DNA of 64,000 nt. It comes from Asparagopsis taxiformis. Taxonomy: Eukaryota; Rhodophyta; Florideophyceae; Bonnemaisoniales; Bonnemaisoniaceae. Shown here in pieces: positions 23,644-56,745 of the stretch. Each line of letters opens with the position of its first letter. The stretch's first letter is position 1. Below the pieces are notes generated by a model that saw only the letters and a list, made by a program, of their open reading frames with translations, was not told the origin of the DNA and did no database searches. Made by a program: the position numbers and the translations under genes. The stretch is taken from positions 62,001 to 126,000 of the forward strand of contig JALQPE010000598.1 in the NCBI GenBank assembly GCA_030407315.1, written 5' to 3'.

Positions 23644-23865
23644 ATTAAATTATCAAAATTGTACCGAGGTGACAACACATGTCAACTATATACATGCAAT
23701 CGATTGACATCAAGTCGCAACTTGCGCAGCGAGTCAATGCTGCACTGCTGTGCCATTGCAACCATTATCATCCCGGCTCCAACGTCTTCACCACCACCAG
23801 GGGAGGACCAACCCCTCCTTCCGCCCGTCCCAGATACCTCCCATTCTCACAATCCCCAACCCGCC

Positions 23866-25833
23866 ATGCAAACCCGAAAGACTCCCTTTCTCGTTTTGAT
23901 TCTCTCCGTCCTGGTCTTCACATCGCGAACCAATGCATCCGACGCCCCCCTGTTCGGCGATTTCTTCTCCCCAGACTCTCTCATGGGCGCCGGCCAGCGC
24001 AGCCGAGATGCTCCCCCCAACACCCCGGATGGCTTTTCCGACCAAAGCACATATGTTCGTCTCTCCCGTTCCGGTGCCCTTATAGCCGTCGGTGACTTCA
24101 ATCGCGACCGTTTCATAGACCTTCTCATGCTCAATTCGGGCGACCTTCGTCGCGTCAGCGTGGCCTTCTGGCACCACGATGCATTTTCATTTGAACATCG
24201 TGGTTCTGGCGCTTCTCTTGATCAGCTGCCTCCTGCTGCTGCAAAGGAAATGGGAAATATTCGCGGTGCGCACGTCGCTGATTTTAATAACGATGGCGCC
24301 TTGGACATTATTCTTCATGATGGCTCCCATGGTGCATTGTACATTGGCGACGGTGACGGAAATTTCAACACGACACAACCGTTGTATATCCCTGAGATGT
24401 CCCCGAACTGCGCATTGATAGATGCCAATGCTGATCTTATTCCAGACCTCTTTGTCGCTTACCAAAACGGTACGCGTGCCTTTCTGACCTTCCACGAATC
24501 AGACAGTGAAACATCATCAGTACCAATTATTGAAACACACATCTGGGCTGGAGGCGAAAATAACGCTGGCGATGGGTCCCCTTGCGTTGTACTGGACCCT
24601 GTGTCAATGGCCTTTGTAGACCTGGATGGCGACTGTCTTCCCGACCTTGTAGTTCCCACTTCCTGTGGACTTGAAGTATGGAGCAACCCCACACTCAGCA
24701 ACAGACCTTTCTGGGACCTCACTTCAAACAGCACAACAGGTTCCGATTTACGCATCCTGGGGCTTGAGACGTTCAATTCAGCATATGGTGATGGCGCTAT
24801 TGCCTTTGATGATTTCAACGGCGATGGAACCATGGATATTGCAATCCCCAATCGCAACAGACAGGACCTCACCATACATCTCAATCAACAAAAAGCGCGT
24901 GAAGCCGGGGCGCTATGCCAACGCGACCCAGATTGGAAGCTGGAGACGCGTGTGGGTGTCACATCTGGATTGAATCTTCGAAATGGAAAAATCGGTTCAC
25001 TGTTCAACAGCATACCGGTCCCGCCATCGATCCATGTGGGCGATTACGATCTGGACGGACTTCCAGACATTCTGGCAATCGATTCATCATCATCGCGCCC
25101 CGTCCTGTTCCGCAACATAGGTCACTGGGGAGACAGCGCGCCACGCGAGCCACATTTTGTGCGAATGACGAACAAAGAAGAGCTCGGCCTCTCCACGGGA
25201 AATTCCGACGCTGTGGCGGGCATGTTCTTCGACACCGACGAGTCTGGTCGACAGGACATTCTCATTGTACGCAAAAACAACGACACACGTCTCATGTGGA
25301 ACAACTTCAATCGGCAATCAGACTCGCTTTTCTTCAAAGGCACCGTTCTGAACGGCCTGCCATACCGCCTGTCGCCGCGTCCGTTTGCACCCGTGCCCGG
25401 TAACACCATCAAGCTCAGTTACATGGAGCGCGGCTCGCACGAGCGGATAACGCGCGCGTGCTCTCAATGCCCGCAATCGGGCATGTGGCAACTGCGTCCG
25501 TGCAACTGCCAGTTTGGTCTGATGCACATTGCAAATTATATCGAGGAAATGTGTGTGGGCGCTGGTGCGGCGCGGCGCTCTTGGACTAATCTGATGCCCA
25601 ATTCAATGGCGGTTGTGTGGGCGGAACTGGGTAGTGCGCCCGCCGATGCGAGCGCTTGGTGGATGGAATACTTCACGCAGCGGCGCGGCGGACAGATGTT
25701 CCGTGTTACTGTGATTTTGGTATTTGCGCTCATCGGACTTGGAATCGCCATCGTTGTTTTGCAACATCAAGAACGGAAACAGGATCGCGAGGAAGATGAA
25801 CAAGAGCGCGTGCGGTTATTTACTTTTGTGTAG
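23866..25833 (+). CDS. ITFG1/LINKIN family (T-cell immunomodulatory protein homolog)
   Basis: The ATG at 23866 gives 655 aa with a clear signal peptide (MQTRKTPFLVLILSVLVFTS). The ectodomain contains FG-GAP/VCBS repeats with Ca-binding loops: DFNRDRFIDLLML, DFNNDGALDIILHD, DLDGDCLPDLVVP, DFNGDGTMDIAIP and DYDLDGLPDILAI. These form a beta-propeller. The juxtamembrane region has the family hallmark RACSQCPQSG, then one membrane helix (about 609-632) and a short charged cytoplasmic tail. LINKIN proteins are cell-surface proteins needed for tissue adhesion in animals and also occur in protists and plants. In an alga, a role at the plasma membrane or cell wall would be inference. Confidence 0.88.
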   Translation: MQTRKTPFLVLILSVLVFTSRTNASDAPLFGDFFSPDSLMGAGQRSRDAPPNTPDGFSDQSTYVRLSRSGALIAVGDFNRDRFIDLLMLNSGDLRRVSVAFWHHDAFSFEHRGSGASLDQLPPAAAKEMGNIRGAHVADFNNDGALDIILHDGSHGALYIGDGDGNFNTTQPLYIPEMSPNCALIDANADLIPDLFVAYQNGTRAFLTFHESDSETSSVPIIETHIWAGGENNAGDGSPCVVLDPVSMAFVDLDGDCLPDLVVPTSCGLEVWSNPTLSNRPFWDLTSNSTTGSDLRILGLETFNSAYGDGAIAFDDFNGDGTMDIAIPNRNRQDLTIHLNQQKAREAGALCQRDPDWKLETRVGVTSGLNLRNGKIGSLFNSIPVPPSIHVGDYDLDGLPDILAIDSSSSRPVLFRNIGHWGDSAPREPHFVRMTNKEELGLSTGNSDAVAGMFFDTDESGRQDILIVRKNNDTRLMWNNFNRQSDSLFFKGTVLNGLPYRLSPRPFAPVPGNTIKLSYMERGSHERITRACSQCPQSGMWQLRPCNCQFGLMHIANYIEEMCVGAGAARRSWTNLMPNSMAVVWAELGSAPADASAWWMEYFTQRRGGQMFRVTVILVFALIGLGIAIVVLQHQERKQDREEDEQERVRLFTFV

Positions 25834-26005: not shown

Positions 26006-28483
26006 TTACGAAGCATCCATTCTTCCATGACTAGTGCGCTTGCCATCCTCAACCCGCAGCAGCCAATCGAGCCGTCTCAGCTTCGAGTTTAACTTTCGAG
26101 AAACTGGCGTCAACCTATCACTTGCCCGTAGAGTCTGCTGTGGTGTTCTCTCAGTCGCACTATTCCCTCGTTTGCTACCGTCAGCCTCTGCAGCCGCTTT
26201 CAAATTGCGATAGACATCCCTAACAATATCCCATTCTGTAATCTCGGAGCGATTTCGCAAAATTGTACTCGCCATTGCAGAATAGGTGACCATATCCGGC
26301 TGCTGACTTTCGTCCGCCACAAGCCCCTTGTAAATGTCTGCCACGACCTTCCATCCACCACCATGCATTCCAGCCGCATACAACGCGGCATTGTAGCTTG
26401 CTGTTGTTGGTGGTGGAATGAACGAAGAACTAGCGTCTGCTTGCTGCATACATTTCAATAGTTCCACAGCTCGTTGCCATTGTCCGGCGCGTCCGCAACC
26501 GTCGATCAACGCTGTCCATGCAAACGTATCATTGAGACCTATGCCTACATCTTGCATTTCACCGAGAAATCGAAACGCTCGATCAATTTGGCCATTGCGA
26601 GAACAAGAGCGGATGACAACGGCATATGTTTTGGCGTCTGGTGCGATGCCTTTACATTTCATGTTTTCGAATAACGTCAGACATCGGGTCAGCGATTGTA
26701 CTTCTCGTCCCAAGTGGTCCAGCGTTACGTTACAAACGGTTACGTTAATAAGTCCTTTCCAGAAGAGCCAGCCGAATACTGAAATTGCATCGGCTTCATG
26801 CCCTGTTTCGAAAAGAATTGTCAGTAACAATCCATGTGTCTTTTCATCAAGCGCGGTTCCGTCACGCACAGAATGTGAAAACAGCTGCATAGCAGAACGG
26901 TGATCTCCCGCAGCGCGGAATTGTTTCAGATACGATGACAGCGTCAAGGAATTGAGTTCAAAGTTGGGATCGTTTCGCATTTCATTCGAGATAATGTTAA
27001 TCAGTTTGGTCTGCTTGGCTTCGACAAGCACATCGAGCAAAATATTGTATGTGACCTGGGACGGAGCAAGTTGTCTCTTTTTCATGTTATAAAAAAGCTG
27101 GACTGCAAGTTGTGGGTTTCCACTGCGGCCCAACGAATAAATGACGGCGTTGTAAGTTTCAACGTTTGGTTGCAAGCCCGATTGCAAAATATCGTTTTCC
27201 AGAACTTGGTTCGCTTCACGGAACAGTCTGAACCTGACAAACGTCGAGATCAGCACATTGTACGTCTCAATGGTAGGCGCGATGTTGGCTTCATGCTGCA
27301 TGCGATAAATAATCTGTTTCGCAGTGCTGACCACATCGTGAGCAGATATCCTCAAGTCTTTACATACTGAAATAAGTCGACTGAAATGAACACGCTGTGG
27401 TTGCATCACAGCATATTTCGGCGCCCAATCGAGCAAAACCTGCAGCCCGAGTTGTATATCGGAGCTACGAATCGCCGTCTCAAACATAGTTGTGATGATT
27501 ATTTCTGTAGGCTCCACATTTGCGTCTTCCATCTGTTGAAAGACACGTCTGGCATTATGCGTGTCTCTGGCCTTGCTGCAGGAAGCAAGCGTGCTCGAAA
27601 AAATGTACACATTGGGATCAACGGACGAAGATCGCATCGCTGCATCAAAATATTTGATAACCTTGGCATGATTGCCACCTCTGTGACAGGCCGATATAAT
27701 CGGCGCATACGTTCGTGCATTAATATTCACATTGCGAGCTTCCAAGTCGTGCAAAACTTGCTCCACAAGCGCGAGCTCTCCGCACTTTGCATACGCAGAA
27801 ACCAATGCGGAGCCGGAAACAACATTGGGCTTAAAACCAAACACGCGTCTCGACTTGTCATCAAAATACTTTGTATAAGTCGCATCGCGACACGTCGCGC
27901 ATATCTGGAACAAAATCGACATAGTAAACTGGTCTGGAAAAACATCGCTCTGCAGCATACAATCGAACAACTGCACGGCAACTTTCAACAGATTGCTGGC
28001 ATACCCCTGCTCGCTATTCTTCTTGTTGCCGCGCAGCGCCATGAGAATGGCATTGAAGGTCGTCGCATTCTCCGGCGCGGGAATGGACTGCGAGAGGTCG
28101 TAGAGCTCTTCGTAGAGCTCTTCGGCGGCGATCGAAGCGCCAGAGTCGCGCATTTGGGCCGCATGCACATGAAGTGTTTCGTTGAGATAATCAGTGTCAT
28201 GTTTGGCCGTCGCATAAATCTTCTGCAGAATCATTTTCGCTGCCAGCCAATCACCCTTTTTCCGCAGCCTTTGCGCGTCCATGATGTCCTGCATGGGGCG
28301 ACGACGGGCGGCACGCGGGTTGTGATTGCGCCGCGCGCGGCGCGGCGGCCCATGGGTGCACATGGCCCATTTTGCGCGGCGCGGCGGCGTGAGAGGAGCT
28401 CGCGTGAAGCTGGTGAGAAAGGCTGGGTGGTGGTGAATGAGCACGGATTGCGGCGTGTTGAGAGAGAGCTGGGCGGGAAGCAT
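26006..28483 (-). CDS. Pentatricopeptide repeat (PPR) protein, P-type
   Basis: The ATG at 28483 gives 825 aa. The leader is basic and Pro/His-rich and includes HPAFLTSF and an Arg-rich stretch, so it is organelle-targeted, most likely to the plastid. From about residue 60 to 760 it is a run of 35-residue helical repeats, for example NVVSGSALVSAYAKCGELAL, PTIETYNVLISTFVRFRLF, NVETYNAVIYSLGRSGNPQL and DAKTYAVVIRSCSRNGQ. The C-terminal tail is basic, with no E/DYW or SMR domain visible. PPR proteins bind organellar RNA one base per repeat and control processing or translation. The target is not predictable by eye. The gene is intronless. Confidence 0.9.
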   Translation of the reverse strand: MLPAQLSLNTPQSVLIHHHPAFLTSFTRAPLTPPRRAKWAMCTHGPPRRARRNHNPRAARRRPMQDIMDAQRLRKKGDWLAAKMILQKIYATAKHDTDYLNETLHVHAAQMRDSGASIAAEELYEELYDLSQSIPAPENATTFNAILMALRGNKKNSEQGYASNLLKVAVQLFDCMLQSDVFPDQFTMSILFQICATCRDATYTKYFDDKSRRVFGFKPNVVSGSALVSAYAKCGELALVEQVLHDLEARNVNINARTYAPIISACHRGGNHAKVIKYFDAAMRSSSVDPNVYIFSSTLASCSKARDTHNARRVFQQMEDANVEPTEIIITTMFETAIRSSDIQLGLQVLLDWAPKYAVMQPQRVHFSRLISVCKDLRISAHDVVSTAKQIIYRMQHEANIAPTIETYNVLISTFVRFRLFREANQVLENDILQSGLQPNVETYNAVIYSLGRSGNPQLAVQLFYNMKKRQLAPSQVTYNILLDVLVEAKQTKLINIISNEMRNDPNFELNSLTLSSYLKQFRAAGDHRSAMQLFSHSVRDGTALDEKTHGLLLTILFETGHEADAISVFGWLFWKGLINVTVCNVTLDHLGREVQSLTRCLTLFENMKCKGIAPDAKTYAVVIRSCSRNGQIDRAFRFLGEMQDVGIGLNDTFAWTALIDGCGRAGQWQRAVELLKCMQQADASSSFIPPPTTASYNAALYAAGMHGGGWKVVADIYKGLVADESQQPDMVTYSAMASTILRNRSEITEWDIVRDVYRNLKAAAEADGSKRGNSATERTPQQTLRASDRLTPVSRKLNSKLRRLDWLLRVEDGKRTSHGRMDAS

Positions 28484-29518
28484 AGTGAGCTGATGTGTTT
28501 GGTTTCTGGGGTGCACGTGTTAGAGTTTGTTGTATGCAAGATGAGTTGAGCGGAGATTTCGTTCGCTGTTGATAGTCGCCGTTCGGTTCAGTGCTGCGGG
28601 GATTTGTCGTGATGCCATTGGTCGTTGCTGAAATGGATATGGTGAATTGTGGGTTAATTTGGGGTGTTTTGATATTTGAAATGGGATATTTTGTGGAGCG
28701 GTGCGCGTCATGGTCGCCATGAAGGATTGGGTGGATGACGTCGGCAGAATGGATTGTGGGAAGAGATGTGCCAGTCTGGCGACCGTGCACTGCCTCCGAG
28801 GCCGTGCCTTGTGGATGGCGATGTGAGGAAAGGAGACTAGTCGATGGAAATCTGAACTACAGTACATTTGAGGCCAAGTGATGGTACCCTTAGGTAATCG
28901 CGGGAATGGACCATGATTGTCAGAGTTGGTAGGAAGTTTATTTTAGTATTTCCATCTATGCCTGGGGTAGTAGCGGTTATATGTCATCGTCTCGTTACAG
29001 TCCGCTGGCAGAATTGCTGCTTGGGAAATATACACTCATGAATGCGGTAAACTGAAAAGAATACAAATGTGGATAAAAAGGAAAAAGCAGTTTTACGGTA
29101 TATGTATGGAGCTACAAAATGCCGTTTAATATAATGCTGTACTTTCAGGTACACAGATCTGTGTGCAAAAAGAGAAGCCTTGTCATGTGCAACGATACCG
29201 CTAATGCCACACTTGGGATGTAAGTGACATCCAGCATTATTTCTAATCAGAATCTCCAGTCGAGCCTTGTCGTACAAACTTCCACTTCTCAGTTTAGTAC
29301 CAATCAAGCCAATTCTTCCCCTCAGCAAGAAAGCGTCGACCTTACCATAATCCACCAATGAGCTTTGTTACGTACACCTGTATCTACAACTTCCCAGGAC
29401 CACCTCTACAATCCTCTGTCACCACCTTACATGCCCCATACACCCATAGCCCCGCCCCAATCCCATTCTATACAACCACCATCACCCGTCCCCGACAGTG
29501 TCACGCCCGTCGACCACA
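28484..29518. promoter_or_regulatory. Divergent intergenic region, PPR and Roc-COR-TIR genes
   Basis: 1,035 bp between two divergent start codons. The part close to the TIR gene is C-rich, with CATCACCCGTCCCC near 29480. A perfect 14-bp palindrome ACACAGATCTGTGT lies at 29151-29164. ORFs of up to about 120 codons occur, but none has a recognisable domain. Confidence 0.4.
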
Positions 29519-32500
29519 ATGAAGCACAACATGGCGAGAAAGCACCGTCGCTCCGAGCGCAAATCTGTAACGCGTCAAAAGACCAACCTCGACGCGGAAG
29601 TCTTCGATGCGCTCCTCGAGGTGCAGGATGAAACCTTCCCTACACCTCTGGTCCCTCCACTGCCTTCCCCCGAACCGGCCGTGCAACACCGATCCATCGA
29701 CAACGCATTTCGTCGCGTCGTAGCCAACTCGCCACCGCCAGTACCCCCGTCCCAAGCCGTGACTATAAACTTGAACAATTCGCATGAATGGCCCGCGTTG
29801 GGTGTGCCCACACCGCCGCCGCCGCTGCATCCAGATCCGTCCGTTGTGTCCGCCGCGATGAACCACGGTACTTCGCGACTCGATACTGTCCGATTACTCG
29901 TGCTCGGTTCGCCTGGGCGCGGGAAAACGACAACTATCTCCAGTTTGAGACGCAGGGAGTTTGTTGAAAAAAGGTCGTCGACGCGTTGCGTGGAATTGAA
30001 TGTGTGCTATGTTGTTCCAGGGCGTCCGACCATTGACGAGCAGCTGCAAAATACACTTAGACATCGTGATACTTTCAAAACGCGTTTCAGAAATTTTCTG
30101 AGAGAACTTCGAAAGCGTCCGATTACTTCACCGGGTATACGCAGACACTCCTCCGATCCAAATATTTCGCAGATGATCGGACTGGACAATATTTCCAATG
30201 TCACCCAGGATGATCTGCATAATAGTGTTATGGAAAAGGCGAGCGCTTCGGATGAATTTTCAGTACAGTCGATTCCAGAAGCTTGTGTTACTCTGCGTGT
30301 TTGGGATTTCGGTGGACAACGCGAGTACGAAGCTGCGCATGAGCTTTTTATTTCCCCGCGCTCCATTTTATTGTTTGTTTTCAATTTGGGCAACTTTATT
30401 GATAATGAAACGAAAGAAAAAGAAGTTGCAGAGCTTTCACGATGGCTACTCAATGCGTTTGCGTTAACAACGAACTATCAAGAGGATTGCATACCACCAA
30501 TATTGATTCTAGGAACTCATCGGGATGCATGCGAATCATCCATGGAAGTGGCACAACATTTCAGCGAGCTGCGAATGATGCTTTTGAAGAAATTACCGCC
30601 ACGCCTATGTGATGAATGGGAGCTTGATTCGGTAAAAATGCTCGCGATCGAGAATCGAACTGCTGTTAAAGATATCAAGCACTCTGGGTTGGAAAGTCTG
30701 GAAAACCAATTGAAATTGTATGCATTGAAAGTTATTGAGGAAAGTGAACAAATCCCGCTGCGGTGGCTTGCTTTTCTAGAGGAATTAAAGTCTGAGAACA
30801 AGAAGACAGGAAGTTTATTCATAGAACAGGACACAACAGAGGAAATGATGAAGGGCTTTAGATTTCCGCTTTATGGCGTGAATCAGAATGAAGAGTTGAA
30901 AAACTTTCTTCTATACTTTCGTGATCTCGGCGAATTGATTCTTTTCGCCAGAGAAGGCCAAATTTGTGAGGATGATGAATCAGGAACAATATTTTCAGAA
31001 TCTGCTCTTTCCGTTTCGCAAAGTCAGTACTGTGTGTTTCCAGAGCCAGAAAAGATTCTTGAGGCACTCGCTGTGATAATCGCACCCCCAAGTATTCGCT
31101 GTGAAGGTCTGAGATATGGAAGCCACATAGACCTTGTCACTCGGGGACATTTGGATATGGATATATTGAAGATTAAGTGGGGAGGTATGGCTGGTCTACA
31201 GAGCGAGCATGAACGTGAAGTTCTGGTCAATCTATTGATTGCAATGGACATATTTGTGAAATTGGAAGGCAAATGTCTAGCAGTGCCAGCGCTTATAAAG
31301 TGTGGGTGGGAAGACTGGAGCTGGCTGAAAGGGAGCGGAAGAAAGCGGGAATTATCAGCGATAACAAAATTGGAGGACGTTGTTCCTATCGGACTAATCG
31401 GCACGCTTATTGCGCGTTTGCATCGAACAATCGGGCAGAAGGGGACCAAAATCCACTGCGTCCGCTCCAATGCCGTGTTGTTATCTATCCCGACACAAAA
31501 GCCCGGGAAGCAGTTGAAACAACTGTTCGCTGGGTTTGATTTCAGCAACAGATCGCTACATTGGACGGTGCGCGCTGATAAGTATGATTTCGAATTACTG
31601 GCGTTGAGTCTACGTGCATTCGATGAACATGTACGTTATCGTCTGGGAGAAAAACGAAAGCAACTGAAATATGAGCATTTCTTTTCGGTGAAATGCCCAA
31701 AGGAATGCAGCGAGACGGACGAAACTGTATTGCTCAAGATGCCGCCTCTCGAACAGATTGTGGAGTGCGTAAGCAGAGAGAGACTGCCTGAGAAATGGGC
31801 ACGATTGTTTGCTGAACAAAAATCGGTACTGTCCAAGATATCAGATATTTGTGAGGAGGATGTATGCCAGAATGCAGAGTGCTTGCACATGATAAGTCTC
31901 AAGGATGGATTGAGCGTAAGCACGGTGTCTGAGGCGCCTGGACCTGGTAGTAGACAGGAAGAGAAGTATAAGGTGTTCCTGAGTCATGCGGGAGAGGACA
32001 AGGACCTTGCAGTGATGTTGAAGGAAGAATTGGACCGACGTGGACTACATACATTTGTGGATCGTCGTGGATTGCAAGGGAGTCGAGTGAAGGCGTCTAG
32101 ACGAATCAAAAGTGTTCTACGCACGACATGTATTGGGGTATTCCTACTTTCGCCAGAATTTTTCGGCAAGCGGTGGCCGATGTTCGAGCTTCGAGAATTT
32201 CTGAAGCGCAAATTGGGCGGTGGTGATGATGGACGGCATGTGTTATTGTTCCCGATATTTCACAGGTTGACGTATTGCGAGGCGAGTGACAACGAGTTGT
32301 ACAAGAAGAAACATATTGCATTGTTTGGATTGCATGGGTTCTTTGATCCGAGTCGACAGCAAGAGTGTTCGACGACGGATGCGCTTGGTGCGTTTAAGGA
32401 GGTGTGCAAATATAGTGGGTTGGAACAGAAGAACTGGGACATGCATTTGATGGCGATTTGGAGGAACCCGTGGGTTTATCTGTGGACGCTGTTAGTGCGC

Positions 32501-32671
32501 GTGATCAAATATATATTTGGCGTTGAACGCGATTCGCTGTGGCTTTTCGGTGTTACGAATCAGCAGTTTGTCGAGACTGCCGCGGATCGCATCCACCAAG
32601 CGTATCAGAAGCCGATCGACTGTGATGGCAGTGGCCAAAGCGATGAGGAGGAGGACGCTTGTTTTCATTAA
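29519..32671 (+). CDS. Roc-COR GTPase with C-terminal TIR domain
   Basis: The first ATG is at 29519 (1,050 aa, intronless). The N-terminus (about 1-120) is basic, then Pro-rich. The Roc GTPase domain follows: P-loop GSPGRGKT (about 130-137), switch II WDFGGQREY (about 262-270), and the base-specificity motif GTHRD (about 332-336). A long insert separates the P-loop from switch II. A COR-like region (about 405-700) contains FRDLGELILF and a winged-helix-like stretch. The C-terminal TIR domain (about 816-953) starts YKVFLSHAGEDKD, then GLQGSRV and GVFLLSPEFFGKRWPMFEL. The Glu at about 890 (codon 32186-32188) aligns with the catalytic Glu of NADase TIRs. A hydrophobic stretch follows at about 984-1000. 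No LRR or kinase domain is present. It is probably a danger- or pathogen-sensing switch. Confidence 0.88.
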   Translation: MKHNMARKHRRSERKSVTRQKTNLDAEVFDALLEVQDETFPTPLVPPLPSPEPAVQHRSIDNAFRRVVANSPPPVPPSQAVTINLNNSHEWPALGVPTPPPPLHPDPSVVSAAMNHGTSRLDTVRLLVLGSPGRGKTTTISSLRRREFVEKRSSTRCVELNVCYVVPGRPTIDEQLQNTLRHRDTFKTRFRNFLRELRKRPITSPGIRRHSSDPNISQMIGLDNISNVTQDDLHNSVMEKASASDEFSVQSIPEACVTLRVWDFGGQREYEAAHELFISPRSILLFVFNLGNFIDNETKEKEVAELSRWLLNAFALTTNYQEDCIPPILILGTHRDACESSMEVAQHFSELRMMLLKKLPPRLCDEWELDSVKMLAIENRTAVKDIKHSGLESLENQLKLYALKVIEESEQIPLRWLAFLEELKSENKKTGSLFIEQDTTEEMMKGFRFPLYGVNQNEELKNFLLYFRDLGELILFAREGQICEDDESGTIFSESALSVSQSQYCVFPEPEKILEALAVIIAPPSIRCEGLRYGSHIDLVTRGHLDMDILKIKWGGMAGLQSEHEREVLVNLLIAMDIFVKLEGKCLAVPALIKCGWEDWSWLKGSGRKRELSAITKLEDVVPIGLIGTLIARLHRTIGQKGTKIHCVRSNAVLLSIPTQKPGKQLKQLFAGFDFSNRSLHWTVRADKYDFELLALSLRAFDEHVRYRLGEKRKQLKYEHFFSVKCPKECSETDETVLLKMPPLEQIVECVSRERLPEKWARLFAEQKSVLSKISDICEEDVCQNAECLHMISLKDGLSVSTVSEAPGPGSRQEEKYKVFLSHAGEDKDLAVMLKEELDRRGLHTFVDRRGLQGSRVKASRRIKSVLRTTCIGVFLLSPEFFGKRWPMFELREFLKRKLGGGDDGRHVLLFPIFHRLTYCEASDNELYKKKHIALFGLHGFFDPSRQQECSTTDALGAFKEVCKYSGLEQKNWDMHLMAIWRNPWVYLWTLLVRVIKYIFGVERDSLWLFGVTNQQFVETAADRIHQAYQKPIDCDGSGQSDEEEDACFH

Positions 32672-32840: not shown

Positions 32841-33269
32841 CTACGCATAGATGGCAGCTGCAAAGAACGCCGCAGCCACAAGCGAAGCGAGCGCCAGCGC
32901 GCCGGCCGGCACAAACTTGTTGGTCTTGTACAATCGAATGGCAAACACCAGTGTAAGCGCGACGGCAGTGCCGAGTGCGATTGGCAAACTGTCCTTGACG
33001 TATGCGGCTGCGAGGACGATACCAGCGGCGACACCGGAGATGAGACTGGGCTTGGACGATGAACGAAGGAAAGCACCGATACCACCAGCGGAAATGACCA
33101 CACCGTAAACAGCAATCGCACTACGCGCCGTTTCCGGCGACACAATAGCCATGCGCGCGACGCGTCGGTGCTGCACTGTGCGCGTCGGCAGCGCTGGTTT
33201 AAGCGCGAGCGTACTGCGCGATGCGGAAAGCGGCGCAAAGAACGGGGTGACAAACGCTGTGCGGCACAT
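32841..33269 (-). CDS. TMEM14/FAX-type plastid membrane protein
   Basis: The ATG at 33269 gives 142 aa with the leader MCRTAFVTPFFAPLSASRS and an Arg-rich end, a plastid transit peptide. The mature part has four hydrophobic helices with the Gly-rich pattern of TMEM14: YGVVISAGGIGAFLRSSSKP, then SLISGVAAGIVLAAAYV, ALGTAVALTLVFAIRLYKT, and KFVPAGALALASLVAAAFF. In plants the plastid members are FAX proteins of the inner envelope that export fatty acids for lipid assembly in the ER. The length and four-helix layout are normal. Fatty-acid export is the likely role, by family membership. Confidence 0.87.
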   Translation of the reverse strand: MCRTAFVTPFFAPLSASRSTLALKPALPTRTVQHRRVARMAIVSPETARSAIAVYGVVISAGGIGAFLRSSSKPSLISGVAAGIVLAAAYVKDSLPIALGTAVALTLVFAIRLYKTNKFVPAGALALASLVAAAFFAAAIYA

Positions 33270-33725
33270 GTTGCAATGAGTGAGACGGATCGATGGATGG
33301 ATCGCGACGGGACGGGACGGGATGGGATGGGATGCTCGCGACGATGGGAGATTAAGATGCCAGCAGTGTAGACGGGGCATATAGACGGACCGATCGGAGC
33401 TGAGACGGGTGTCAAATCAAAGGTGCTGTAAATGGACGCCGTATGGCAGCTGGAGGGCGCGTCGCGCGAAATTGAAAGCTGCGCTGGACATGGGGAAAAA
33501 ATAAAAAAAGGGCGCGCTCGCTTTCAACGCTGCCAAATGAGACAAGTGCTCGCTTTGCAAAGGTCCAAACGCACTACACAACGCTTACGCTGCCGCCATC
33601 TGTCCGTCGACACCCGCTCACCAACCACTCTCTTGTCCCCGTCCTGCCTCCTTGTCGTATCGCATCGTATCACATAGGCCCTTCCCTTACCTTCTCCTCT
33701 CTCCCATCCATTGCACACTCCCGCC
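33270..33725. promoter_or_regulatory. Divergent intergenic region, FAX and NF-YC
   Basis: 456 bp between divergent starts. It contains the GGGAC/GGGAT repeat in the FAX leader and a pyrimidine-rich leader before NF-YC. No gene is seen. Confidence 0.4.
33292..33334. repeat. Short tandem repeat (GGGAC)n(GGGAT)n in the FAX leader
   Basis: A GATGGATGG tetranucleotide run is followed by GGGAC units changing to GGGAT units. It lies 23-65 bp upstream of the FAX start. In the mRNA sense it reads CATCCC/CGTCCC. Confidence 0.8.
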
Positions 33726-34568
33726 ATGGCGGAAGAAAACCAAGCTGCTGCAGCGACTGCACCTGCCGCCCCCGCCGCACCTGCACCCGCCCCCGCCGCT
33801 CCCGTGCCCTCCCAAGTCGCCCCGCCCTACGCCTCCCAGATGGCCGCCCAGACCCAGATCATGCAGCAGCAGACCCGTCAGGCACAGCTCCAGCAGCAAC
33901 AGAATCTCCACGAGCTCAACGCAAAGCTCTCCCAGTTCTGGATCGAACAAATGGCAGAGGTGCAGCAGGCGACCGATTTCAAGAACCACTTGCTCCCCCT
34001 CGCACGCATCAAGAAGATTATGAAGTCGGACGAAGACGTTCGCATGATTTCCGCAGAGGCACCCGTCCTCTTCGCTAAAGCTTGCGAAATGTTCATCCTC
34101 GAGCTCACCCATCGCGCATGGGCACAAACAGAGGAGGCAAAGCGTCGTACATTGCAGCGTTCCGATATTTCCGCCGCAATTCAAAAGACTGACATTTTCG
34201 ACTTTCTCATCGACATTGTCCCGCGCGATGACCCCAAGAAGGAAGACGCTCGTCCCGTTGCAGGCGCCGTTGACCAATCTCAAATGCAGTATTATACAAT
34301 GGCAAACATGTCCCCAGCCGCATACGCAATGCCGCCCCAAATGAACCCCAGCGCCACAGACACTTCCGCTGCAATGATGTACGCCCCCAATCCGCAACAG
34401 GTCTACGCTTCGTCAACCGGTTACGCAAATGCCATGGGCTATCAACCCGCCATGGTCAATCCGCAGTATATGCGCATGCAACAGCCAGTCGTCTATGCGC
34501 CCCCAGGCTATCAGACCCAATATCTCACTGGTTCCACACCGCAAGAACAACAGCCCCCTTCCTCTTGA
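33726..34568 (+). CDS. NF-YC (HAP5) CCAAT-binding transcription factor subunit
   Basis: The first ATG at 33726 gives 280 aa. An Ala/Pro-rich and then Gln-rich N-terminus (about 1-75) precedes a histone-fold domain (about 80-170). That domain has LSQFWIEQMAEVQQATDFKN, LPLARIKKIMKSDEDVRMIS, EAPVLFAKACEMFILELTHRAW, RTLQRSDISAAIQKTDIFDF and LIDIVPRDD. It is nearly identical to NF-YC across eukaryotes and distinguishes it from the Pol epsilon/CHRAC subunits. The C-terminal 100 residues are rich in Met, Gln, Tyr and Pro, typical of an activation region. It pairs with NF-YB and NF-YA to bind CCAAT promoters. Confidence 0.95.
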   Translation: MAEENQAAAATAPAAPAAPAPAPAAPVPSQVAPPYASQMAAQTQIMQQQTRQAQLQQQQNLHELNAKLSQFWIEQMAEVQQATDFKNHLLPLARIKKIMKSDEDVRMISAEAPVLFAKACEMFILELTHRAWAQTEEAKRRTLQRSDISAAIQKTDIFDFLIDIVPRDDPKKEDARPVAGAVDQSQMQYYTMANMSPAAYAMPPQMNPSATDTSAAMMYAPNPQQVYASSTGYANAMGYQPAMVNPQYMRMQQPVVYAPPGYQTQYLTGSTPQEQQPPSS

Positions 34569-35994: not shown

Positions 35995-37557
35995 TTACAC
36001 TCGACCGTAGAAAGAAACATACAGCGCAGAAGCTGATAACATGAACGCATTGCCCGCCGCACCCAGCAATCCACCGGACGGCAACGGTCCAATCTGTCCC
36101 TGTGAAGAGAGCACCGCAATCGGCACGGGGAATCTCTCCGAATACAACGTTCTATCCAAATCAGCATTGACCTTACCGTACAAATAAGCGCCACGCTCCG
36201 AGTCCACCAAAAGTAACGAACCCATCATCGCCATTCCATCCATCGCTCTCGACGACCCTTCCAATTGCAACTTTTCAAACAACGAAACCAGCTCTGCCCT
36301 CGCCGCTTCCTCATCCCTGATCTGAAACTGCACCCTACTCCCGAGTCGCACGTCACTGCCCTCAATCGTGAGCGACTTTGTGGCCTCATTAAAACCAATC
36401 ACCTTGCGAATGACCATGTCCGGCGGCTGCTGCACATCAGGTTCCGTTTTCTTAGCATCGGCTTCCAAACTGGACATGAGCGACAACTGAGCGACCTGCG
36501 CCACGCTGTCAATCTCGACGCCGAACAGCAGATACTGACGAGAATGCGCGCGGTCCTGCTCTGAAATAACTTCGTTTGAGGCCCACATGTCCAGCAGAAT
36601 CATCGGCGGCGCATTTGTCTTGGTCGCGGTATCAACCTCGCGAACTCTGGCGATTTCATTGCCGTCGCGTACCTCGGTCACCTCCATAATGGGCCCGACG
36701 CCACGGGCGCCCTGCGCGACACTGACGTCCATTTGAACGTCCGCGCTGGAGATGGCGATGCCGATTACACCGTCTGATACGTGTCCGTTGGTGTCGAACA
36801 GATAGATTTCGTGGAGCGGGTTGACGGCACCTGCTTGCGCGCCGAGTTTGGGCACGCCGGGATAGGCGAAATCCAGTCCGGAAAGTAGCTCTGCCATCTG
36901 GTCGAAATTTGGGTGCTGTAGAAGGAAGATTTGACTACTCTGTGGTAGAGATTCTGGCTCGGTGTCGTCGAAGGGGTCTTTCTGAAATGGCGGCGCCAAA
37001 CCCACAAATTCGTGCCATTGCTTCTGCTTCCAATCGATGTCAAACATGCTGGTTTCGTTGATGCAAAACGTTTGGATACTGGTGCCGGGTGGAAAATGGA
37101 CCAGCGCTACGATGACGGTCGGCTCATCGTCCGGGTTGGAATAATTGTTGGAGGAACATCCGAAGAAGATGGTTTCAGAAGCTAGAACTCTTCTCATTGC
37201 GAGTGCTTTTCTAGCAGTGGGTACTGCGCGTCGCATTTGATCATCGGTTGTATTCTCGGCTCGGGATTTGACAAAGAGAAATGCCACACTGGTCGTGACG
37301 TTACGACGTGACAGTGTGGCGGATGCACGCGTCACAGCTTCACGAACGGCATCGACGAGTTTGTACTCGTTGGACTCGCCGACAGCCCAGGTGAAAGATG
37401 TTGTCGCTGAAGGCGACTCACCGACGTCGGTGCACGACGTCGTGCAATGGCGGGACGTTGGTCGTTTGACTGCATAGTTGATGCGACGCGAATGCAGACA
37501 TTGTGGAGGACGAAGGGAGGGACGAAGAGGGATTGGGAATTGGAAAGCGGGATGCAT
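35995..37557 (-). CDS. FIST-domain protein, plastid-targeted
   Basis: The product is 520 aa. It begins MHPAFQFPIPLRPSLRPP followed by Arg/Ser-rich sequence, a red-algal plastid transit peptide. The FIST N domain (about 60-290) has WAVGESNEYKLVDAVREAV, SVAFLFVKS, a GCSSN motif and PKLGAQAG. The FIST C domain (about 330-515) has LGSRVQFQIRDEEAARAEL, SLLLVDSERGAYLYG and PIAVLSSQGQIGPL. FIST is a sensory ligand-binding module found in bacterial signalling proteins and in F-box proteins. Here it stands alone in a plastid protein. Ligand and partner are unknown. Divergent from the RNA polymerase III gene. Confidence 0.82.
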   Translation of the reverse strand: MHPAFQFPIPLRPSLRPPQCLHSRRINYAVKRPTSRHCTTSCTDVGESPSATTSFTWAVGESNEYKLVDAVREAVTRASATLSRRNVTTSVAFLFVKSRAENTTDDQMRRAVPTARKALAMRRVLASETIFFGCSSNNYSNPDDEPTVIVALVHFPPGTSIQTFCINETSMFDIDWKQKQWHEFVGLAPPFQKDPFDDTEPESLPQSSQIFLLQHPNFDQMAELLSGLDFAYPGVPKLGAQAGAVNPLHEIYLFDTNGHVSDGVIGIAISSADVQMDVSVAQGARGVGPIMEVTEVRDGNEIARVREVDTATKTNAPPMILLDMWASNEVISEQDRAHSRQYLLFGVEIDSVAQVAQLSLMSSLEADAKKTEPDVQQPPDMVIRKVIGFNEATKSLTIEGSDVRLGSRVQFQIRDEEAARAELVSLFEKLQLEGSSRAMDGMAMMGSLLLVDSERGAYLYGKVNADLDRTLYSERFPVPIAVLSSQGQIGPLPSGGLLGAAGNAFMLSASALYVSFYGRV

Positions 37558-37913: not shown

Positions 37914-42375
<4,462 letters not shown>

Positions 42376-53425: not shown

Positions 53426-54264
53426 CTAACAACACTTGCTCATCTTTGATGTGCTCTTGCGTGCGCCAGTTGGCGTCTCTAGTTTGATGGAATCGCCATG
53501 TGGATCTTGTGTCTCCTCCCCGATTCGTCCCGTAACTGTATTAACACTAGCTAACTTGTAAATTTCTTCAAGAACACGTTTGAAACTTTCGTCCACGTTG
53601 GTCGCGTTGAGCGCCGACGTTTCGAGGAAACTGAGTCCGAATTTTGCAGCTGCGGCCGTTCCCTCTTCAATTGTCACTTGACGCTCATGCTTCAAATCGC
53701 ATTTATTGCCGACCAACATGACGACTATCTTCGAATCGGCGTGGTCCTTCAGTTCCTTCAACCAACGCTCCACACTCTCAAACGTGTTCTTCTTGGTGAT
53801 GTCGTACACCAGCAGCGCGCCGACAGCGCCACGATAGTATGCCGACGTGATAGCGCGATATCGCTCCTGTCCGGCTACGAGTGACAAGTGCACCATACGG
53901 GCGCGGCATGTTAGCGTCGTGTGCTACTGTCGCCATAGCCAAGCGCAAATCACAACCTACCTGTATCCCAAATCTGCGCCTTGATGGTCTTCCCCTGGAT
54001 TGCAATGGAACGGGTTGCAAATTCAACACCGATAGTGGTTTTGGAATTGAGATCGACTTCATTGCGCGTGAATCGTAGAAGAAGATTACTCTTGCCAACT
54101 GCACTGTCACCTATTAAAACAACTATAGTCAAGTGTGCCATGAACGCGCGCGCGCGCATGTGTCAGCTCAGTGTTTGCGGGCGCGCATGAGGCGCAACAC
54201 ACAACATGGCAAATGGTATCGTACCTTTGAATAGATAATCATACTCATCCTCGTTGCGTGCCAT
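53426..54264 (-). CDS. RAB11-type small GTPase, copy 1, three exons
   Basis: Exons are 54264-54225 (40 nt), 54122-53961 and 53874-53426, with introns of 102 and 86 nt. The spliced protein is 216 aa. It starts [20 protein letters not shown]. It has the P-loop GDSAVGKS, switch [36 protein letters not shown] and ETSAL, and ends in the prenylation motif [14 protein letters not shown] and the effector loop are diagnostic of RAB11/RABA, which controls recycling and trans-Golgi traffic. The introns split a Val codon (K-V at residue 14) and the Ala codon of WDTAGQ, both in phase 1. Intron 1 contains a CG dinucleotide run. Confidence 0.95.
54145..54157. repeat. CG dinucleotide run in RAB11 copy 1 intron
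   Basis: Six CG units inside the first intron of the minus-strand RAB11 gene. Confidence 0.8.
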
Positions 54265-55944: not shown

Positions 55945-56745
55945 ATGGCGCGCTCCGACGATGAATACGGTTCGTTTTCACCCCTTTTGCTCCCTCCCTC
56001 ACGCTAGGCCTCTAACCATCCCCGCTGTCAACAGATTATCTCTTCAAGGTGGTTCTCATCGGTGACGCCGGTGTCGGGTACGTATTCCTCATTCCCAACC
56101 CTGCATCGCTGCTCCCCATTCCCACATCACTAATTCCCCTCTTGTGTCGCCGCGTCGCGTTGGTGCAGAAAATCAAACCTGCTGAGTCGCTTCACGCGAA
56201 ACGAATTCAATCTCGAATCCAAGTCCACTATCGGTGTCGAGTTTGCCACCCGATCCATTCAAACAGAGGGAAAGACTATCAAGGCGCAGATTTGGGACAC
56301 AGCGGGTCAGGAGCGCTATCGTGCCATCACTTCGGCGTACTATCGCGGCGCTGTGGGCGCCCTTCTCGTGTACGATATTTCAAAGAAGGGCACTTTTGAA
56401 AATGTCGAGCGTTGGTTGAAGGAACTCAAGGACCATGCCGACTCCAATATCGTTATCATGCTCGTCGGCAACAAGAGCGACTTGAAACATTTGCGTGCCG
56501 TCACAACAGAGGATGGTTCCGCGTTTTCAGAGCAGCACGCTTTGAGTTTTATTGAGACCTCCGCTTTAGACGCGACCAATGTCGAGGCCGCTTTCCGCTC
56601 CATTCTCTCAGAAATATACAAGCTCGGTTCTAAAAAGGCGCTGGAGAAGGGGACCGGCGGCAACTTTGCGCCAAATGCCACACAGACAATTGTTATCAAT
56701 CCGCCAGGTGAAGACCAAAAAGTTGAGAAGAGCAAATGTTGCTGA
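55945..56745 (+). CDS. RAB11-type small GTPase, copy 2, three exons
   Basis: Exons are 55945-55969 (25 nt), 56035-56077 (43 nt) and 56169-56745, with introns of 65 and 91 nt (GTTCGT and GTACGT donors). The spliced protein is 214 aa and starts [20 protein letters not shown]. It has the P-loop GDAGVGKS, which is split by intron 2 at the second base of the Gly codon. It also has the ATRSI effector region, [24 protein letters not shown] and [14 protein letters not shown], and the C-terminal KSKCC for geranylgeranylation. It is closer to plant and animal RAB11 than copy 1 ([11 protein letters not shown]). The intron positions differ from those of copy 1. Confidence 0.95.

Follow-up and report, generated by a model that had tools for sequence, protein, structure and literature searches.

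The window analyzed here is a 64,000-nucleotide stretch of the red alga Asparagopsis taxiformis (G000:C598:62001-126000, in an assembly of 141.5 Mb and 3156 contigs), and by its sequence it carries a genuine, conserved gene for a ROCO-TIR protein. The gene lies at 29519..32671 on the forward strand as a single stop-free open reading frame (ORF) of 1050 amino acids, counted from the first ATG. An earlier sequence-only reading had ordered its product as a Pro-rich N-terminus, a Roc GTPase, a COR-like region and a TIR domain, an arrangement now supported by Pfam, profile-profile comparison and predicted fold. From sequence and structural modeling it appears probable, with considerable room for doubt, that this is a ROCO-family GTPase with a catalytic TIR as its output, in which the state of Roc-COR would drive cleavage of nicotinamide adenine dinucleotide (NAD+). 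The same evidence makes it reasonable to see, as that reading did, a candidate immune receptor that would turn a GTPase signal into NAD cleavage. ROCO GTPases have so far lacked a simple measurable output, and the chief interest of the protein is a testable GTPase-to-NADase switch. If the proposal is true, a natural ROCO protein with an NAD-cleaving effector would offer a direct readout of how the nucleotide state of Roc-COR governs the effector joined to it. The TIR receptors would also gain a branch gated by a GTPase, and this in a lineage where immune receptors have received little study.

The ROCO-TIR architecture is already published for a red alga. A 2024 paper names a 'TPR-ROCO-TIR (Chondrus crispus)', and the passages of it that bear on the subject count five ROCOs in Chondrus crispus and describe N-terminal TIR domains on the ROCOs of some organisms (PMC11378527). 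Like the window protein (P0001), the Chondrus protein comes from a red alga and places Roc-COR before TIR; unlike it, the Chondrus protein has TPR repeats, whereas the window protein has neither TPR nor Sel1 repeats. Those passages make no mention of a Roc insertion, a Cys cluster, a catalytic Glu or two-TIR forms (PMC11378527). Beyond this paper the term ROCO-TIR was not found among the open-licence PubMed Central papers searched, although more may be published, and neither was the combination of ROCO, TIR and NADase. Chondrus crispus and ROCO came up together in three of these papers, and Roc-COR with the TIR domain in one, which has Roc-COR only among its references. The kind of protein is known, while the Roc insertion, Cys cluster and two-TIR details were not found described in that literature.

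Relatives were sought in three protein searches, two of which covered about 8000 scored candidates each. At least five proteins span Roc, COR and TIR (P0002, P0004, P0005, P0010 and P0011), aligning to the window protein by BLASTP with 35-42% identity over 784-967 columns; together with the window protein they make up the six family rows compared below. One of them, P0010, is annotated as 'TIR domain-containing protein GTPase [Chondrus crispus]'. It is 39% identical over 784 Roc-COR-TIR columns and keeps TFVDR and the Glu, but the deposited protein has 840 amino acids and starts past the P-loop, so its Roc can be judged only in part, and it has Tyr in place of W886. It is perhaps an incomplete gene model. 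In P0004 and P0005, TIR_2 and TIR each match twice by Pfam, N- and C-terminally (best stretches 57-149 and 961-1059 in P0004, 46-150 and 962-1058 in P0005), and a single Roc-COR is flanked by two TIRs. Their N-terminal TIR (residues about 40-215) keeps the Glu (WTMKEL, WPMKEL), with SCAAT replacing SHAG and AFADGGD or SFVDGGD replacing TFVDR. In such members the two TIRs could pair with each other inside one chain.

Another relative is encoded in the same genome. The own-genome protein search, in which 44 of 275 candidates were scored, gave 46 matches, and among these 44 candidates there was one further Roc-COR-TIR gene, L056 on contig C999. A second contig, C3132, is probably a duplicate of C999, because its 1369-codon open frame (L057) is identical to L056. 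Read from MGNRIS, L056 encodes 1353 amino acids with Sel1 repeats (2.9e-48), Roc (2.9e-9) and TIR_2 (6.3e-11), and the Glu of its TIR is kept in WPMWEA. TPR_1 likewise scores above its cut-off on the Sel1 repeats, and L056 may thus be the counterpart of the Chondrus TPR-ROCO-TIR protein. The remaining 41 matches cover the TIR part alone (query 782-1018).

The Roc GTPase spans about residues 118-408 (29870..30742). Pfam Roc (PF08477) matches the window protein at E 6.2e-10 and 39.8 bits, against a curated cut-off of 27; the closest sequence match in the PDB is LRRK2, and the fold matches LRRK2 Roc and Rab GTPases. The G1-G4 motifs of a Roc domain are present, among them the P-loop, DFGGQ and THRD that the sequence-only reading had named. 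The P-loop GSPGRGKT (residues 130-137; 29906..29929) conforms to GxxxRGK[ST], found in all five family rows that reach it, the sixth, P0010, having no sequence there. WDFGGQ at G3/switch II (residues 262-267; 30302..30319), with DFGGQ beginning at residue 263, is kept in 6/6 family rows, and the G4-like THRD (residues 333-336; 30515..30526) reads T-[HR]-R-D in 5/6. The description of the switch as STAND-type, however, proved wrong, since it is a Ras-like Roc and the Pfam scan gave no NB-ARC or NACHT match in the window protein.

Between switch I and G3 the Roc domain carries an insertion at about residues 166-255 (30014..30283), recognized by comparing spacings. The P-loop and WDxGG lie 124 residues apart in the window protein, 136 in P0002, 134 in both P0004 and P0005, 129 in P0011 and 171 in the Sel1-bearing paralog L056. 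The corresponding distances in other Roc-COR proteins are 42 (P0003), 42 (P0006), 39 (P0007), 41 (P0008) and 35 (P0009). The insertion thus measures ~80-100 residues in the family and ~130 in L056. It is placed after switch I because the switch I Thr stands 19 residues from the P-loop Lys in both the window protein and P0003. These other Roc-COR proteins align to the window protein mainly in Roc, with P0003 and P0006 reaching COR-A. Pfam lists Roc and COR but no TIR for P0003, P0006 and P0009, while P0007 and P0008 have an LRR-Roc-COR-TIR architecture. The latter two resemble the window protein in joining Roc, COR and a C-terminal TIR on one chain, but they differ in their LRR N-terminus and in lacking the insertion, and BLASTP aligns only a 32-column Roc stretch.

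Immediately behind Roc, as in ROCO proteins, predicted fold and profile comparison show a COR, though a diverged one. COR-A covers about residues 411-595 (30749..31303) and COR-B about residues 608-752 (31340..31774). In the predicted structure the COR fold matches LRRK2 to residue 742 and CtRoco to residue 801, and the match in the hhalign profile-profile comparison reaches residue 694. A Cys cluster, CPxxC ... C(x4)CxNxxC, follows at the COR-TIR junction (residues 726-788; 31694..31882) and is kept in 6/6 family rows. It is possibly a metal site, and zinc binding would be a guess. The Cys residues of the paralog L056 at this junction resemble the cluster without matching it exactly, and Cys-Pro pairs also occur at the equivalent place in P0003.

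The TIR domain with its C-terminal helices occupies about residues 814-1030 (31958..32608). Two hidden Markov models, TIR_2 (1.3e-9) and TIR (7.3e-8), both score above their curated Pfam cut-offs. The putative catalytic Glu, E890 (codon GAG, 32186..32188), lies in the WPMFEL motif that begins at W886, where the sequence-only reading had seen it, and aligns with its counterparts in AbTIR (WTNYEL) and TcpB (WPAREL), which we take to be the catalytic residues. It is kept in 6/6 family rows, five of which also have the Trp at -4. The same reading had called the TIR plant-like. This holds for the predicted fold, which is nearest to RUN1, RPV1 and L6; the closest PDB sequences, in contrast, are bacterial (4lzp, AbTIR, 7uxr and TcpB), plant L6 being weaker at 1.3e-4. 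In the literature, the TIRs of Chondrus are placed outside the four TIR groups of land plants (PMC9806590). In a 23-row TIR tree the six family TIRs were set apart (96/100). Placement of the window TIR among NB-ARC-WD40 TIRs was rejected on this tree, in which long branches were warned of.

How Roc-COR would control the TIR within one chain can be modeled by analogy. The sections on Roc-COR in one study state that the tandem of Roco proteins dimerizes, with most of the contact made by the C-terminal half of COR, and propose a nucleotide-linked monomer-dimer cycle (PMC6337361). As no repeat sensor is recognized in the window protein, either a partner or the Roc insertion would sense an upstream signal. 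This signal would shift the nucleotide and dimer state of Roc-COR, drawing two or more TIRs together into a composite NAD pocket, and NAD+ cleavage would then lead to NAD loss or to signaling nucleotides. Recognition may be the task of partners or of the N-terminus, which varies: the window protein shows no sensor there or elsewhere, whereas the paralog carries Sel1 repeats and P0004 and P0005 a second TIR. In the window protein this N-terminus (residues 1-105; 29519..29833) is Pro-rich, as first read, with 19 Pro, and predicted to be disordered: the predicted local distance difference test (pLDDT) score is 24-33 across residues 1-100. We tentatively entertain, with doubt slightly outweighing belief, a separate class of intracellular receptors in red algae, in which a Ras-like Roc-COR rather than a STAND ATPase would gate a TIR NADase, and a constant core with its own GTPase insertion would be combined with a swapped N-terminus (disordered and Pro-rich, Sel1 repeats or a second TIR).

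The same genome is rich in NB-ARC and TIR sequences, which suggests innate immunity or regulated cell death as the setting. Scoring 114 of 414 candidates gave at least 114 NB-ARC stretches, and scoring 150 of 315 gave at least 150 for TIR_2; these counts include redundant contigs and are partial, since the window TIR itself is outside the listed matches. Several such stretches per contig occur in an array-like manner on C107, C415, C2109, C2336, C1845, C2825 and others (L036-L055, L058). The C2109 gene (L058), read at full length, encodes NB-ARC-WD40-TIR with the TIR C-terminal. It resembles the Chondrus crispus NB-WD40 genes, of which a passage on that alga counts 58, 23 of them with TIR (PMC7145615). 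The window protein shares with these proteins and with plant TIR-NLRs the coupling of a nucleoside triphosphate switch to a TIR with Glu at the equal place, and its fold is nearest RUN1; they differ in that an NB-ARC ATPase serves as their switch where the window protein has a Ras-like GTPase. The TIR of plant proteins stands at the N-terminus, whereas it is C-terminal in both the window protein and L058. LRRK2 and MFHAS1 are ROCO GTPases linked to immunity.

Several alternatives were weighed against a GTPase-controlled NADase in immunity. The TIR may make a signaling nucleotide (a cyclic ADP-ribose isomer, or 2',3'-cAMP/cGMP) instead of depleting NAD, with the receptor encoded elsewhere. We regard this as unlikely, though the strongest of the alternatives, and it overlaps the proposed role, which leaves the product open. 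The TIR fold nearest to plant TIRs speaks for it, and a passage on plant TIRs describes some as bifunctional, both activities depending on the same Glu (PMC9806590). No match to the EDS1 EP domain was found in the genome, but the control gave no match anywhere either. A non-immune ROCO, in which a metabolic or developmental sensor of GTP or NAD would use its TIR to adjust NAD levels, is less likely again. It would fit the single other Roc-COR-TIR gene among the candidates scored, set against at least 150 TIR stretches, the housekeeping-like scanned neighbors and the GTP-sensor role that part of one study proposes for Roco proteins (PMC6337361). The TIR output, the varied N-termini and the large genomic NB-ARC and TIR repertoire, however, resemble immune hardware. 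More doubtful still is a MyD88-like scaffold or adaptor that would bring in further TIR proteins from the same cell and keep the Glu without NAD cleavage as its job: the paralog and 6/6 family rows retain the Glu, its W-x3-E spacing is that seen in AbTIR and TcpB, and MAL and MyD88 match the predicted fold less well than plant TIRs and AbTIR. A chance ORF or pseudogene is scarcely credible, given 1050 open codons (probability 3.5e-15 for one given frame at the stop frequency of the 64,000-nucleotide window), kept motifs and homologues along Roc-COR-TIR.

Other observations weigh against a Roc-COR-controlled NADase. The HMM check of COR failed: Pfam COR had no match in the window protein, nor anywhere in its own genome (searched with PF16095 to an E-value of 0.1 and with PF25497 to 1), so that the COR claim stands on the profile-profile comparison and predicted fold. 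P0002 has TRSS at the G4 place, a degraded G4, and no sensor domain was recognized in the window protein by Pfam. The structure models were built from alignments of 11 and 6 sequences, with mean pLDDT of 68.8 and 70.7, and the BB loop is of low confidence in both (residues 851-857, or 850-855 when the TIR is modeled by itself). The TIR tree carries a long-branch warning that includes the window row, and it does not place the paralog or some further rows. No defense array is apparent around the gene, as its six scanned neighbor ORFs are all ordinary and no other TIR or NB-ARC lies on contig C598 among the matches listed.

Compared with LRRK2, LRRK1, C. tepidum Roco and M. barkeri Roco2, the window protein lacks LRR and kinase (no match at E up to 10, with HMMER filters applied) and has the Roc insertion, a TIR output and a COR below Pfam detection. 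The earlier statement that LRR and kinase are absent thus holds for the window gene by Pfam, while relatives carry Sel1 repeats or a second TIR. A hydrophobic patch after the TIR had been proposed to bind membrane. The patch exists and is amphipathic (helix at residues 984-1001, 32468..32521; 984-999 in the model), but the case for membrane binding is weak because the patch is not conserved, having no counterpart in any of the five relatives. Its best 19-residue Kyte-Doolittle mean of 1.29 is below the usual transmembrane level, and a transmembrane anchor at 984-1002 was rejected for low hydropathy and lack of conservation. L056 (MGNRIS...) and L058 (MGKCFS...) start with an apparent, presumed N-myristoylation signal, and the window protein has none.

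The first 60 residues of P0002 resemble the winged-helix end of NB-ARC, which would mean NB-ARC-Roc-COR-TIR. With a profile from 13 own-genome sequences, whose alignment falls at the winged-helix place, the first 50 residues scored 1.3 bits, below the best shuffle at 4.2, and an NB-ARC remnant is therefore not claimed. Prokaryote genome contigs gave eight matching loci (six Pseudanabaena, two Planctomycetota) and viral contigs four. In all but one of the 12, the match is confined to Roc or ends shortly beyond it (query 223-437), though a TIR may still lie next to Roc at these loci; the exception, a viral locus, matches query 45-111. A TIR-only scan of viral contigs gave seven pattern matches, none of them confirmed.

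The scanned neighbors encode an ITFG1/FG-GAP-like protein (23659-25833, +), a PPR protein (26006-28516, -), a TMEM14-like protein (32841-33380, -), an NF-Y/histone-fold factor (33711-34568, +), a FIST-domain protein (35995-37557, -) and the N-terminal part of RNA polymerase Rpb1 (37914-40958, +). FIST is known mostly as a bacterial sensor domain, and its gene is the odd one among the six. Further along, Roc/Ras profiles match at about 53696-54123 (-; G000:C598:115696-116123) and, strongly, at 56170-56481 (+; G000:C598:118170-118481; 2.9e-27, in a 203-amino-acid open frame). Both are probably ordinary small GTPases.
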